This document shows positions 2,631 through 8,652 of a stretch of 9,689 nt of DNA, piece by piece. Position 1 is the first letter of the stretch; each line of letters starts with the position of its first letter. The DNA is taken from assembly GCA_020061125.1 (NCBI GenBank), contig JAGUYV010000438.1, positions 1 to 9,689 on the forward strand. Direction: 5' to 3'. The translations under genes were made by a program, and so were the position numbers. This stretch comes from a bacterium. GTDB lineage: Bacteria; UBP15; UBA6099; DSWB01. The notes under the pieces are model-generated. The model saw only the letters and a program-made list of their open reading frames with translations, did not search any database and had not been told where the DNA came from.

Positions 2631-3965
2631 CTAGAAGCGCTTGTCCAGGAACCTGTAGATTTCATCGCGGACCGCGTTGAATTTCGGCGGCAGCGGCTTG
2701 GGCAGGTTGGCGTAACGCGCCTTCACATCCTCGATTTCGCCCTGGTGGTAGCGGATTTTGAAGGAAGTGAATTTCAGGCCGTTGGCGGTGCTGATGACCA
2801 CGACGCGCGCCTTGGGGTCTATGACTTTTTTTGCGTGCAGCTTGAACAGCGCGGCCAGGGCCACGCCCGTGTGCGGGCATGCGAACAGGCCGGTGCGGTC
2901 CGCGCGCGCCGCGGCGTTGGCCAGCTCGCTCTCTGTGACCTGTTCCACGATGCCGTTGAATTTCTTGAGCGTGCGGATGGCTTTGTTGATGCTCACCGGG
3001 TTGCCGATCTGGATGGCGCTGGCCAGAGTCTTCTGCGCGCGCACGGGCTTGTATTCCTTGAAGTTCTTTTTGTATGCGAGGTACAGCGGGTTGGCCTTCT
3101 GGGTCTGCGCGCAGATAATCTGCGGCATCTCGTCTATGATGCCCAGTTCCTTCCATTCCTCGAAGCCCTTGCCGAGCGCGGACACATTGCCCAGGTTGCC
3201 GCCGGGGATGATGACCACATCCGGCGGATGCCAGTCGAACTGCTGCACCATGTCCCAGGCCACGGTCTTCTGGCCCTCGATGCGCAACGAGTTCATGGAA
3301 TTGGCGAGGTAGATGTTCTCGCGGGCCGTAAGCTCCTGCACGATCTCCATGCAGCCGTCGAAATCGGTTTCCAGGGCCAGGGTCAGAGCGCCGTTGGCGA
3401 TGGGCTGGATGAGCTGTGCGTTGCTGACCTTGTCCTTGGGCAGAAGTACGATGGGCAGGATGCCGGCGCAGGCGCAATAAGCGGCCAGGGCCGCGCTGGT
3501 GTCCCCGGTGCTGGCGCACGCCACGGCCGGGATGTGCTGGCCCTCGGCGATCATCTGTTTGACCTGGGACACGAGCACGGTCATGCCCAGATCCTTGAAG
3601 CTGCCGGTGTGGTCGTTGCCGCATTGCTTGACCCAGAGGTCCTTCATTCCCAGCTCGTGGCCGAGGCGGTCCGCCCAGAACAGGTTGCTGCCGCCCTCGA
3701 ACAGGCTGACCACATTTTCGTTGTCCACATGCGGGTTGACCATTTCCTTCTTGCCCCAAACGCCGCTGCCGAAGGGCCACTCGGTGCGGCGGAAGCGCTT
3801 GTCGAACAGGCGCTTCCAGCTCTGGGCGTCGCGCTGCTTGAGGCGCGCCATGTCGTGCCTGACCTCGAGCAGGGCGCCGCATTCCGGGCATTTGTAAATG
3901 ATTTCATTGAGCGGGCGGCGACCCGGGCATCCCGCGATGCATTGGAACCAGGCCTTGTATTTCAT
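2631..3965 (-). CDS. thrC: Threonine synthase, plant-type
   Basis: 444 aa. The enzyme converts O-phosphohomoserine to threonine with PLP (fold type II), in the cytoplasm. A zinc-ribbon-like Cys set opens the protein: C9, C13, C26 and C29 (the latter two in KCPECG). The PLP lysine is Lys124 in [13 protein letters not shown], followed by [15 protein letters not shown], the IANGA and DTDFDGCM segments, EGQKT, the phosphate-binding [17 protein letters not shown] and [14 protein letters not shown]. These blocks run nearly word for word with plant and cyanobacterial threonine synthases as I recall them, rather than with the E. coli ThrC type. The ATG at 3965 has an AAGGTGG site about 10 nt upstream. 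The gene is transcribed away from the SepCysS operon across a 194-bp shared region and precedes the cystathionine synthase gene. In plants these two enzymes compete for O-phosphohomoserine; here the pairing suggests one methionine/threonine branch point. Assignment is secure, but allosteric control by S-adenosylmethionine is unknown. Confidence 0.93.
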
Positions 3966-4159: not shown

Positions 4160-4357
4160 ATGGACACCGCCACAAAGGAACGCAACACGCGCCGCGTGGA
4201 CTGCACCTTCCGCGTGCTCGACGCCATGGAGGACATTCGCGATGTGTGGCGCGACACCGCGCCTCTCCAGGATCTGGACGAAGCGCAGCGCGACAAAGTC
4301 CTGAAAAAAATCGGCGCGGCCCGCAAGGCGCTCGATCTGTTGGAGGGCCTTCTCTGA
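4160..4357 (+). CDS. Small helical protein coupled to SepCysS; candidate truncated SepCysE-like partner
   Basis: 65 aa, starting at ATG 4160 behind an AGAGGAGA ribosome binding site (about 4144-4151); the TGA ends at 4357. An in-frame ATG at 4034 exists but sits on the -10 box, and its extension is basic and unlike the rest, so I prefer 4160. The protein is charged and almost certainly all-helical, with heptad-like spacing of hydrophobics from FRVLDAMEDI to KALDLLEGLL, a single Cys at residue 15, no signal peptide and no membrane segment. The stop is followed by one base and then the SepCysS ATG, so translation is coupled. Family knowledge: SepCysE is the scaffold that joins SepRS and SepCysS in class I methanogens, and shortened SepCysE-like proteins are reported fused or coupled to SepCysS. 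Position and helical character fit that, but I cannot show homology by eye. It could instead be an unrelated adaptor. Confidence 0.62.
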   Translation: MDTATKERNTRRVDCTFRVLDAMEDIRDVWRDTAPLQDLDEAQRDKVLKKIGAARKALDLLEGLL

Positions 4358-4358
4358 C

Positions 4359-5480
4359 ATGCACTCACGCGAACGAGAGGAACTGTTCATCAACATCAAC
4401 CCGCTGCAGACTGCGGGCCGCACCCGCGCCGCGGTGCGAAAGGCCGTCACCCGCTATGTGGACGGCTACAGCGTGTGCGATGCCTGCACCGGTATCCTGC
4501 ACGACATCGAAAAACCGCCCATCAAGTCCCTCACCCGGGAGCTGGCCGAATTCCTGAATGTGGACGAGGCGCGCACCACGGCCGGTGCGCGCGAGGCCAA
4601 GTTCATGGTCATGCACTCCGAATGCCGCCCCGGAGATATCCTGGTGCTGGACGGCAACGCACATTACAGCACCCATGTGGCCGCGTCTCGCGCGGGCCTC
4701 GAAACAGTCGAGGTCCCGGCCGGCCCGCCCCCGTTCTTCAAAATCACTGCGGACGCATACGCCCAGACGCTGGCGGAGGTGAAGGCGCGAACCGGCAAGC
4801 CCGCGGCCCTGGCCCTGCTCACGCATGTGGATGGCGACTACGGCAATCTCACGAACGCGGCCGCCATCGCCGCGGTTTGCCGCGAGGCCGAAGTGCCCCT
4901 GCTGCTAAACACCGCCTACACCACCGGCCGCATGCCCGTGGATGTGCGCGCCCTGGGCGCGGACTTCGTGGCGTGCAGCGGACACAAGAGCTGGGGCGCG
5001 TGCGGCCCTATTGGCGTTGTGGGGGCCATCGGCGAGCACGCCGCACACCTGTTCCGCCTGGACCAGCGGTTCCCCAAAAAGAATATCGAACTTCTGGGCT
5101 GCACGGCCCGCGGCAGCAACATCATGAGCCTCATGGAAGCCCTGCCCCTGGTCAAACAACGCATCAAGCGCTGGGAAGAGGAACTCGAAAACGCGCGCTG
5201 GTTCGCAGCCCGCATGGAACACATCGGCAAGGGCGGCATCAAGCTGCTCGGAGACAACCCCACCAACCACGACCTCATGCGCTTCGCCACACCCCTGTTC
5301 CATGAAATCGGGCAGCGGCAGCGCAAGAAAGGCTACTTCCTACACAAGGAACTCACGGACCGCGGCATCACCGGACTCAAACCCGGCCAAACCCAGTGGT
5401 TCAAAATGAGCACCTACGGCCTCTCCCGTTCCCAGGTCGAGTACCTGGCCCAGGCCTTCGAGGAAATCGCGGCCCTGTAA
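4359..5480 (+). CDS. pscS: O-phospho-L-seryl-tRNA:Cys-tRNA synthase (SepCysS)
   Basis: 373 aa. This PLP enzyme (fold type I) converts phosphoseryl-tRNA(Cys), made by SepRS, to cysteinyl-tRNA(Cys) using a sulfur donor. Diagnostic segments: FININPLQTAG (residues 10-20), GYSVCDACTG with Cys40 and Cys43, GAREAKFMVMHS, NAHYSTHVAASRAG, HVDGDYGN, the PLP lysine Lys210 in SGHKSWGACGPIGV, LLGCTARGS with Cys248, DNPTNHDLM, and GLKPGQTQWFKMSTYGLS near the end. The CxxC pair, the third Cys and the Lys match the positions of the essential residues of archaeal SepCysS almost exactly, with no large gaps. The length is also typical. The start is fixed by a GGAGG at 4342-4346 and the one-base gap after the small upstream gene. 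The stop codon lies in the loop of the terminator. GC content and codon use look like the neighbours, so no recent transfer is evident. Selenocysteine-type SepSecS or a NifS-like desulfurase fit far less well. Whether a SepRS exists in this genome is unknown. Confidence 0.92.
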   Translation: MHSREREELFININPLQTAGRTRAAVRKAVTRYVDGYSVCDACTGILHDIEKPPIKSLTRELAEFLNVDEARTTAGAREAKFMVMHSECRPGDILVLDGNAHYSTHVAASRAGLETVEVPAGPPPFFKITADAYAQTLAEVKARTGKPAALALLTHVDGDYGNLTNAAAIAAVCREAEVPLLLNTAYTTGRMPVDVRALGADFVACSGHKSWGACGPIGVVGAIGEHAAHLFRLDQRFPKKNIELLGCTARGSNIMSLMEALPLVKQRIKRWEEELENARWFAARMEHIGKGGIKLLGDNPTNHDLMRFATPLFHEIGQRQRKKGYFLHKELTDRGITGLKPGQTQWFKMSTYGLSRSQVEYLAQAFEEIAAL

Positions 5481-5808: not shown

Positions 5809-6621
5809 ATGGCTATCGTCACCATGAAGCAGCTTCTGGAGGCCGGCGTGCACTTCGGCCACCAGACCCGCCGCTGGAACCCGAAGATGAAACCCTTCAT
5901 CTTCCAGGAACGCAACGGCATCTACATTCTGGACCTGCAGCAGACCCTCAAGCGCCTTCTCGAATCCTATGAAGTGGTCAAAGACTGCGTACGCGGCGGC
6001 GGTAAGGTCATGTTTGTTGGCACCAAGAAACAGGCCAGCACCGCGATCATGGAGGAAGCGCAGCGCTGCGGCATGTACTACATCAACCAGCGTTGGCTCG
6101 GCGGCCTGCTCACCAACTTCGCCACCATCTCCAAGCGCATCCGCCGCCTCTCGGAACTCGAAGCCATGATTGAAAGCGGCGAGACCGAGAAGATGAAGAA
6201 GAAAGAGCTGAAACAGTTCAATACCGAACTGAACAAGCTGCGCAAGTACCTGGGCGGCGTGCGTGGCATGGACGGCGTGCCGGACCTCATGATCATCGTG
6301 GACCTTCGCAAGGAAGAGATCGCGTTCAAGGAAGCCAAGAAAATGGGCATCCCGGTCATCGCCCTGGTGGACACCAACTGCGATCCCACGGATGTGGACT
6401 ATCCGATTCCGGGCAACGACGACGCCATCCGCGCCGTGCGCCTCATCTGCAAAATCCACGCCGACGCCGTGATTGACGGCAATCAGCCCGCCTCGGTCGC
6501 CGAGGAAGATTTCGCCCATGCGGCGCAGGACTCCGCAAAGGCGGCCGGCGACGAGGTGGACCAGGACATCGCCTCCGGCAACGAGCAGGTGTTCGAGAAG
6601 GAAGAGGCCGGGGTCGAATGA
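5809..6621 (+). CDS. rpsB: 30S ribosomal protein S2
   Basis: 270 aa. S2 sits on the small subunit near the mRNA exit side and is needed for initiation. The start [20 protein letters not shown] is the standard S2 opening, and GGAGGT (5793-5798) precedes the ATG by 10 nt. The open frame continues further upstream, but that extension has no S2 similarity. Typical blocks follow: [80 protein letters not shown] and [11 protein letters not shown]. After the S2 core the protein carries an acidic tail of about 48 residues (223-270) rich in Ala, Asp and Glu, and variable in this family. tsf follows after 77 bp, the common bacterial arrangement. The long structured leader suggests translational or attenuation control. 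Confidence 0.98.
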
Positions 6622-6698: not shown

Positions 6699-7292
6699 AT
6701 GGAAATTACGGCAGCAATGGTGAAACAACTGCGCGAGACCACGGGCCTCGGCATGATGGACTGCAAGAAAGCCCTGCAGGAATGCGACGGCGACATGGAC
6801 AAGGCCGTCGAGTTTCTGCGCAAGAAAGGCATGAAGGTTGCCGAAAAGCGTGCGGGCCGCGCCACCAGCGAAGGCCTCGTCGAGTCCTACATCCACCTGG
6901 GCGGCAAGCTCGGCGTGCTCGTGGAACTCAACTGCGAAACCGACTTCGTGGCGCGCACCGACGCCTTTAAAAATCTGGCCAAGGATCTGTGCATGCAGAT
7001 CGCGGCCGCCGCGCCCCTGTACACCGCGCGCGAAGATGTGCCCCAGGATGTGATTGACCGCGAATCCGAGATCTTCAAGGCGCAGGCTCTTGAAGAGGGC
7101 AAACCCGAAAAAATCCTCCCCAAGATCATCGAGGGCAAGCTCAACCGGTTCTATGAAGACATCTGCCTGCTCGAACAGGCTTTCGTCAAGGACCAGGACA
7201 AGAAAATCCGCGATCTGATCAGCGCGGCCATCGCCGAGACCGGAGAAAACATTCAGGTAGGGCGCTTCGTGCGCATGGTCCTTGGCCAGTGA
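6699..7292 (+). CDS. tsf: Elongation factor Ts, short form
   Basis: 197 aa. EF-Ts is the nucleotide exchange factor that reloads EF-Tu with GTP in the cytoplasm. The N-terminal UBA-like domain carries [19 protein letters not shown] (residues 8-26), and the core has the hallmark NCETDFVAR (78-86). A second conserved stretch, [16 protein letters not shown], is followed by a short C-terminal part ending in [12 protein letters not shown]. coli EF-Ts is about 283 aa with two core subdomains; this is the single-core form seen in Thermus, actinobacteria and some other phyla. A GGGAG (6684-6688) precedes the ATG by 10 nt. The gene lies 77 bp after rpsB and ends before a strong terminator, so rpsB-tsf forms its own transcript. 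Confidence 0.97.
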
Positions 7293-7368: not shown

Positions 7369-8088
7369 ATGGCGGAACCGGTCTACAAAAGAATTCTGCT
7401 GAAAGTCAGCGGCGAAAGCCTGGGCGGCGAGTCCGGGCAGGGAATCCAACCGGACAGCCTGGCGTATTACGCGCAGGAAATCAAATCCATTAGAGACCTC
7501 GGGGTGGAAATCTCGATTGTGGTGGGAGGCGGCAACATCTTCCGGGGAGTGTCCGTGGCCGCGCGCGGCATGGAACGGGCCAGCGCCGACTACATGGGCA
7601 TGCTCGCCACGGTGATTAACGCTCTGGCCCTGCAGAACGCGCTCGAAGTGGCGGGCGTGTACACCCGCGTGATGAGCGCCATCGAGATGCAGGCCGTGGC
7701 CGAACCCTACATCCGCCGCCGCGCCATCAGGCATGTGGAAAAGGGCCGCGTGGTCATCCTGGCCGCGGGCACGGGCAACCCGTTCTTCACCACGGACACG
7801 GCTGCGGCCCTGCGCGCCGTGGAAATCGGCGCCGGCGCCATTCTCAAGGCAACCCGCGTGGACGGCGTGTACGATTCCGATCCGGAGAAAAACCGTGACG
7901 CCAAAATGTACTCCGAGCTGTGCTTCATGGACTGCATCCGCGACCAGCTCCGCGTCATGGACAGCACCGCCATCACCATGTGCATGGAAAACACCATTCC
8001 GATCATCGTCTTCAACTTCCTCAAGCCGGGCAACCTCAAGAAAGTCGTGCTCGGCGAAAAAGTCGGCACAACCGTGAAAGGGGAATAA
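7369..8088 (+). CDS. pyrH: Uridylate kinase
   Basis: 239 aa. UMP kinase of the amino-acid-kinase fold makes UDP from UMP and ATP for pyrimidine nucleotide synthesis; bacterial enzymes are hexamers regulated by GTP and UTP. Visible blocks: [13 protein letters not shown] (residues 8-20), [10 protein letters not shown] (51-60), the [16 protein letters not shown] helix (74-89), [19 protein letters not shown] (132-150), [12 protein letters not shown] (161-172) and [11 protein letters not shown] (198-208). Length is normal. I choose the ATG at 7369, behind GGGGGA about 10 nt upstream. An in-frame ATG at 7342 would put that site inside the gene and add nine unusual residues. frr follows after six bases, so the pair is co-transcribed. 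Confidence 0.97.
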
Positions 8089-8094
8089 CCCGCA

Positions 8095-8652
8095 ATGCTC
8101 GATGACGTATACGCTGACGTGCGCGCCCGCATGGACAAGACAATCGAGGCCACCAAGAGCGATTTCAGCGCCATCCGCACGGGCCGCGCCACCCCCGCGC
8201 TTCTGGACCGGGTCTCCGCCGAAGCCTACGGGTCGCCCATGCCCATCAACCAGCTCGCAACCATTTCCGTGCCCCAGCCGCGCCTGCTCGTGATCCAGCC
8301 CTTCGACAAGGGCAACATCACGCTCATTGAAAAAGCCATCCAGACCAGCGATCTGGGCATCAACCCCCGCAACGACGGCAAGAGCATTTTCCTCGACATC
8401 CCGCCGCTCACCGAAGAGCGCCGCACCGAACTCGTCAAACAGATGAAAAAAGTGGGCGAGGAGATGAAAGTCGCCATCCGCAGCATCAGGCGCGACGCGC
8501 GCGACGAAGTGGACCTCCTTGAGGAGGAAAAGGAAATCAGCGAGGACGACCAGAAACGCGGCCACGACGAAATCCAGAAGCTCCACGACGAGTACATCAA
8601 AAAAATCGAGGAGCTGATGCGCAAAAAAGAATCGGACATCATGGAATTCTGA
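8095..8652 (+). CDS. frr: Ribosome recycling factor
   Basis: 185 aa, the usual length. With EF-G, RRF splits the post-termination ribosome into subunits. The three-helix bundle with an inserted small domain is recognisable: RTGRATPALLD (residues 28-38), VSAEAYGSPMPINQLATISV (40-59), LLVIQPFD (64-71), then DLGINPRNDGKSIFLDIPPLTEERR, and a long charged helix to the end (KKIEELMRKKESDIMEF). The ATG at 8095 lies six bases after the pyrH stop, with AAAGGGG (8077-8083) in the end of pyrH as its binding site, so the two are probably translated together. No clean terminator follows; a T-run at 8753-8758 lacks a good stem. Confidence 0.98.
   Translation: MLDDVYADVRARMDKTIEATKSDFSAIRTGRATPALLDRVSAEAYGSPMPINQLATISVPQPRLLVIQPFDKGNITLIEKAIQTSDLGINPRNDGKSIFLDIPPLTEERRTELVKQMKKVGEEMKVAIRSIRRDARDEVDLLEEEKEISEDDQKRGHDEIQKLHDEYIKKIEELMRKKESDIMEF

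Follow-up and report, generated by a model that had tools for sequence, protein, structure and literature searches.

The 9,689-nucleotide stretch analysed here (the window) carries a two-gene operon encoding the adapter SepCysSn and Sep-tRNA:Cys-tRNA synthase (SepCysS), which very probably serves indirect Cys-tRNA formation together with a SepRS bearing a fused editing domain, alongside CysRS and cysE/cysK. We consider this the best reading, since SepRS is encoded by relatives from the same phylum. The indirect route supplements rather than replaces the direct CysRS route, which is also encoded. The window is an entire contig (G000:C144) of a metagenome-assembled genome (MAG; G000) that is 78.79% complete and comprises 513 contigs. 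Systems of this kind are rare, and both the kind and one member of the window's phylum are already in the literature. Among the seven genomes sampled from the phylum (G000–G006), SepCysS is present in six, which moves tRNA-dependent cysteine synthesis from one unusual bin (ADurb.Bin236) to nearly all the genomes sampled, alongside CysRS.

The SepCysS gene (4359–5480, forward strand) encodes a protein of 373 aa that scores 493.9 bits against TIGR02539, exceeding the SepCysS equivalog cut-off of 365.25 by about 130 bits, and 484.4 against PRK09331 (cut-off 301). The nearest solved structures are the SepCysS of A. fulgidus (2e7i; phmmer E 9.1e-112, with 52% of aligned residues identical) and, second, that of M. 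jannaschii (3wkr; E 1e-103, 46% identity). Cys40 and Cys43 of the Cys-x-x-Cys motif (codons at 4476–4487, with Cys40 at 4476 and Cys43 at 4485), the PLP lysine Lys210 in SGHKS (4986–4988) and Cys248 in LLGCTARG (5100–5102), all on the forward strand, align with A. fulgidus Cys39/Cys42, Lys209 and Cys247, respectively, and are invariant in the alignment; the three cysteines are the catalytic/Fe-S residues of the family. The window protein shares with the A. fulgidus and M. jannaschii enzymes the clade I trait (Mukai et al. 2017) of lacking the 8-aa insertion that would fall between residues 234 and 235 of the A. fulgidus protein. At the level of sequence, these comparisons confirm the initial annotation of the ORF as a full-length, genuine SepCysS in a bacterial chromosome.

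Downstream of SepCysS on the forward strand lies rpsB, encoding bacterial ribosomal protein S2 (5809–6621; TIGR01011), which starts 328 bp after the SepCysS gene and is followed by tsf (6699–7292; TIGR00116), pyrH (7369–8088; TIGR02075) and frr (8095–8652; TIGR00496), each over the cut-off of its model. The host is a bacterium because this bacterial rpsB stands beside SepCysS, as had been deduced initially, and it is also correct that the host lies outside the Chloroflexi and Parcubacteria. The GC3 of SepCysS is 0.826, compared with 0.78–0.87 for the genes of the window, and its codon choice falls inside the range of its neighbors; the earlier view that the gene is ameliorated to its host and old in the lineage was right. 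On the reverse strand, threonine synthase (thrC, 2631–3965; TIGR00260, 224.9 bits against a cut-off of 167.1) is the divergent neighbor, in an arrangement repeated in the f3 relatives (L039–L042). Also on the reverse strand is a Cys/Met-metabolism PLP enzyme resembling cystathionine gamma-synthase/lyase (1230–2498; PF01053, 1.6e-131), which falls under every curated NCBIfam equivalog cut-off listed; this gene adjoins the SepCysS region in most relatives (L037, L040–L042). A glucuronyl-esterase-like protein (PF22244) is truncated by the contig end, so that positions 3–599 hold only its C-terminal portion.

The first gene of the operon, overlooked in the initial annotation, encodes a 65-aa protein (4160–4357, forward strand) and is separated from SepCysS by 1 bp. 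Each of the six SepCysS-bearing genomes of the phylum conserves the frame from an internal ATG (4160 in the window), and distinct phylum sequences are 58–65% identical. The gene lies directly upstream of SepCysS at every one of the six phylum loci, and the same holds for most of the bacterial and Altiarchaeales relatives; one bacterial locus, that of UBA9089 (L052), is without it in the profile search. When its profile was searched against 19,383 six-frame segments (87 loci plus the window), matches above the inclusion threshold were found only directly upstream of SepCysS and were confined to the bacterial clade and the Altiarchaeales clade sister to it. The AlphaFold model is a two-helix hairpin (pLDDT 97), for which Foldseek, run against 350,542 chains, placed the N-terminal domain of M. 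jannaschii SepCysE at ranks 1–5 (rmsd 0.9 over 49 columns, probability 0.99–1.00, with an E of only 0.3–0.8). In the VIA alignment SepCysE reaches Z 7.8, level with many unrelated hairpins, and geometry alone is not specific. A 12-sequence profile searched against 177,635 PDB sequences returned SepCysE (MJ1481) second, at a weak E of 0.33, and a narrower profile built from five phylum sequences did not match SepCysE in the PDB. In an archaeal genome (L239), a second SepCysS copy carries a SepCysSn-like motif fused at its N-terminus. Together the conserved position, the predicted hairpin, the Foldseek and profile ranks and the L239 fusion identify the product, as judged from sequence and modeled fold, as the adapter that PMC5424206 calls SepCysSn, homologous to the N-terminal domain through which SepCysE binds SepCysS. 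M. jannaschii SepCysE (MJ1481; 3wkr/5x6b) has an N-terminal domain that resembles SepCysSn in predicted fold and weakly in sequence, and differs in possessing a C-terminal tRNA-binding domain, for which the 65 aa of SepCysSn leave no room. The part of SepCysE homologous to SepCysSn binds the SepCysS dimer (PMC5688128).

In the mechanism described for the family, SepRS places phosphoserine on tRNA(Cys) and SepCysS uses PLP and a cysteine persulfide, within an adapter complex (PMC5424206, PMC5688128); bacterial SepCysS proteins already published convert Sep-tRNA(Cys) in vitro (PMC5424206). The corresponding model for the window's lineage predicts that a SepRS fused to a ThrRS-type editing domain would charge tRNA(Cys) with phosphoserine to give Sep-tRNA(Cys). 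SepCysS, with PLP on Lys210, would then catalyze beta-elimination of the phosphate to form dehydroalanyl-tRNA, and a persulfide carried on Cys40/Cys43/Cys248 is predicted to deliver the sulfur that yields cysteinyl-tRNA(Cys), with the SepCysSn adapter presumably holding SepCysS in the complex. PMC5424206 puts forward the hypothesis that the fused editing domain serves to remove Ser-tRNA(Cys) arising by dephosphorylation.

CysRS is encoded in all seven phylum genomes, and G000 has cysK, over its cut-off, with a cysE-like gene adjoining. Since CysRS and cysE/cysK coexist with it, the indirect route probably supplements the supply of Cys and Cys-tRNA. Most phylum genomes contain two kinds of tRNA-Cys, both of which have a GCA anticodon, A37 and U73; type A adjoins tRNA-Val(GAC), and type B differs in the acceptor and D stem. 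In G000 the tRNA-Cys(GCA) genes are on C212 (L155:1488–1560) and C488 (L176:9223–9295), with type B about 1.6 kb upstream of CysRS. Inspection of the tRNA-Cys identity elements, suggested at the outset, thus finds anticodon GCA and U73 throughout, both of which are listed as elements for SepRS and for CysRS (PMC8762117). No tRNA-Cys gene lies beside SepCysS or SepRS, the arrangement of some archaea, in the phylum loci scanned.

These data bear on a refinement of the indirect-route reading in which the pathway would mainly serve not translation but the supply of free cysteine, which would come off Cys-tRNA and pass to the neighboring thrC and cystathionine-synthase-like genes. The conserved neighborhood of Cys/Met and Thr enzymes, the two tRNA-Cys kinds per genome and the cysteine auxotrophy of methanogens from which transsulfursome components have been deleted (PMC8762117) are all consistent with such a role. 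However, cysE-cysK is encoded, and the divergent orientation of thrC precludes its co-transcription with SepCysS; we regard this refinement as a real possibility that we would not favor.

SepRS was found over the cut-off of its profile (TIGR00470) in four of the seven genomes (G001, G002, G003 and G005), including all three phylum relatives with a completeness of 90% or more; the same profile detected no SepRS in G000, G004 or G006. The full-length phylum proteins combine a SepRS core with a tRNA-Thr_ED (ThrRS editing) domain, as in G001 (L171:6470–8380), where the N-terminal tRNA-Thr_ED (PF08915, 6.4e-37) precedes the core (2du7, 1.4e-109). In a nine-row tree, the SepRS of Yes70-08 and Yes71-08 groups with that of the phylum. 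A protein query that includes the editing domain retrieved nothing from G000 beyond a tRNA-Thr_ED protein that stands alone on C261 (L189:1498–1917) and follows rpoA-like and rplQ-like genes; the next frame on L189, to 2281, encodes a small, apparently DsrE-like protein. G001 has a free-standing tRNA-Thr_ED copy as well, besides the one fused to SepRS.

Against indirect Cys-tRNA formation stand the lack of a SepRS match in G000, the presence of CysRS, cysK and the cysE-like gene, which make the route unneeded for cysteine supply, and the position of SepRS, which is unlinked to SepCysS in the phylum relatives. The first two of these points would also fit a true loss of SepRS from the genus, leaving SepCysS as an orphan kept for another reaction, for example on free phosphoserine or on another mischarged tRNA, or as an Fe-S/persulfide protein. 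The absence from G000 is weak evidence, however, given an incomplete genome in which the CysRS gene is divided between two contigs and other synthetase genes are missing too: a PheS-like gene matched in G001, G003, G005 and G006 by the same search as SepRS was not matched in G000, and the long editing-domain frames of relatives (probable ThrRS) are likewise absent. Moreover, SepCysSn and all catalytic residues are kept, and the closest genome, G001 (73% SepCysS identity), encodes SepRS; complete genomes without SepRS were found to have no SepCysS (PMC5424206). An orphan enzyme is therefore improbable, and the absence of SepRS is best read as an assembly gap, with the gene most likely missing only from the G000 assembly. 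The initial annotation had left open either indirect Cys-tRNA charging or a new use of SepCysS and had proposed a search of the same genome for SepRS and CysRS. Of these, the indirect route stands on the SepRS of relatives, and the need for a new use lacks support, as incompleteness adequately accounts for the gap; the search itself recovered CysRS and not SepRS.

In a 47-row SepCysS tree, built without Chloroflexi and Parcubacteria sequences, the window protein groups with that of G001 (100/99) and is nested within the phylum (99/96), which in turn belongs to a bacterial clade (98/94) with Nitrospirota and unnamed bacteria. This clade is sister to an Altiarchaeales-containing clade (99/98). 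The phylogeny proposed initially as a check therefore places the window protein among SepCysS. Because SepCysSn is found on both sides of the bacterial/Altiarchaeales split, the SepCysSn-SepCysS operon probably moved as a unit, and we infer the direction to have been from Altiarchaeales-like archaea to bacteria. This suggests that SepCysS and SepCysSn have travelled as a pair between such archaea and at least two bacterial groups.

Given a MAG of 513 contigs, the contig or the gene might be a binning or assembly artefact through archaeal contamination, of which Bipolaricaulota MAG-26 is an example; the probability of this is negligible, since rpsB, tsf, pyrH and frr are on the same contig, codon use is like that of the neighbors, and the protein falls inside the bacterial clade. 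The locus is also syntenic in independently assembled relatives, with SepCysS beside the same neighbors, and this rules out the assembly chimera against which the initial annotation had cautioned. The Bipolaricaulota MAG-26 SepCysS (L070) was set aside, having nearly the same sequence as the enzyme of Methanobacteriaceae archaeon 41_258 and so being probably from a mis-binned archaeal contig. Membership in a different fold-type I PLP family (SepSecS, SelA-like or cysteine desulfurase) would agree with the only strong Pfam label, PF05889 SepSecS (91.7 bits), a broad model also matched by SepCysS, and has next to no probability: desulfurase models are far under their cut-offs (best 35.5 bits against 800; SufS 33.9 against 475.1 and IscS 31.1 against 643.2, both under the curated cut-off), and with the SepCysS equivalog score, the best solved structures and the tree, these scores rule out a desulfurase or SepSecS identity.

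The closest described system is that of bacterium ADurb.Bin236, from which Mukai et al. 2017 described a SepCysSn-SepCysS operon together with a SepRS that includes a ThrRS editing domain (PMC5424206). This bacterium, unclassified at NCBI, is G003 of our sample and belongs to the window's phylum, and the novelty of the lineage implied by the initial annotation is reduced by that report. ADurb.Bin236 shares with the window the operon and the divergent thrC/Cgs-like neighbors, and is from a different family of the same order, with a SepCysS 58–59% identical to the window's. It differs in that the SepRS with a fused ThrRS-type editing domain found there was not recovered in G000, and in that a second, divergent SepCysS present in G000 was not detected there. 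Clade I archaeal enzymes (A. fulgidus SepCysS1, 2e7i/2e7j; Altiarchaeales) have the same catalytic Cys and Lys residues, no 8-aa insertion and 47–52% identity, and Altiarchaeales also have SepCysSn upstream of SepCysS; in contrast to these archaea, the window's host is bacterial, also has CysRS, and has tRNA-Cys with A37 instead of m1G37. The Chloroflexi and Parcubacteria systems (PMC5424206) have a similar bacterial clade I-type SepCysS, with in vitro activity demonstrated for those proteins. There, SepRS and SepCysS are in one operon, whereas in the window's phylum SepCysS shares its operon with SepCysSn, and the SepRS genes of relatives are not linked to it. Further bacterial groups with the system are given in PMC8762117.

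The second, divergent SepCysS (SepCysS2) is encoded in G000:C2 (gene at L036:4091–5239, cluster at L036:2270–6851) and in G001:C121 (L038:6146–9678), within a ThiF-DUF169-SepCysS2-TusA-PALP cluster whose PALP enzyme is threonine-synthase-like. SepCysS2 scores of 318.6 and 338.6 bits are under the SepCysS cut-off, and the 8-aa insertion is present, as seen in the L036 copy. The catalytic Cys and Lys residues are kept, and Q17, E79, H86, R191 and R251 (window numbering), which all canonical copies share, are changed. No match above 40% identity was found in the 28 SepCysS-bearing genomes tested, and a literature search for SepCysS together with TusA found no report. One rather doubtful proposal is that the lineage has two SepCysS enzymes of distinct function, in which the window copy would make Cys on tRNA and SepCysS2 may put sulfur from TusA or a ThiF-activated carrier on a different substrate, possibly one not bound to tRNA. 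SepCysS2 and the two tRNA-Cys kinds are the more unusual features of the system, and with CysRS, cysE/cysK and up to two SepCysS copies in one genome, the question of why two routes to one aminoacyl-tRNA are kept becomes testable. Separately, the SepCysS/thrC/Cgs-like genes of G005 adjoin a gene (L041:12175–15999) for a long, repetitive protein in which 159 of 1274 residues (12.5%) are cysteine, possibly a large cysteine sink; such a protein also lies at the end of L040 (ADurb.Bin236).
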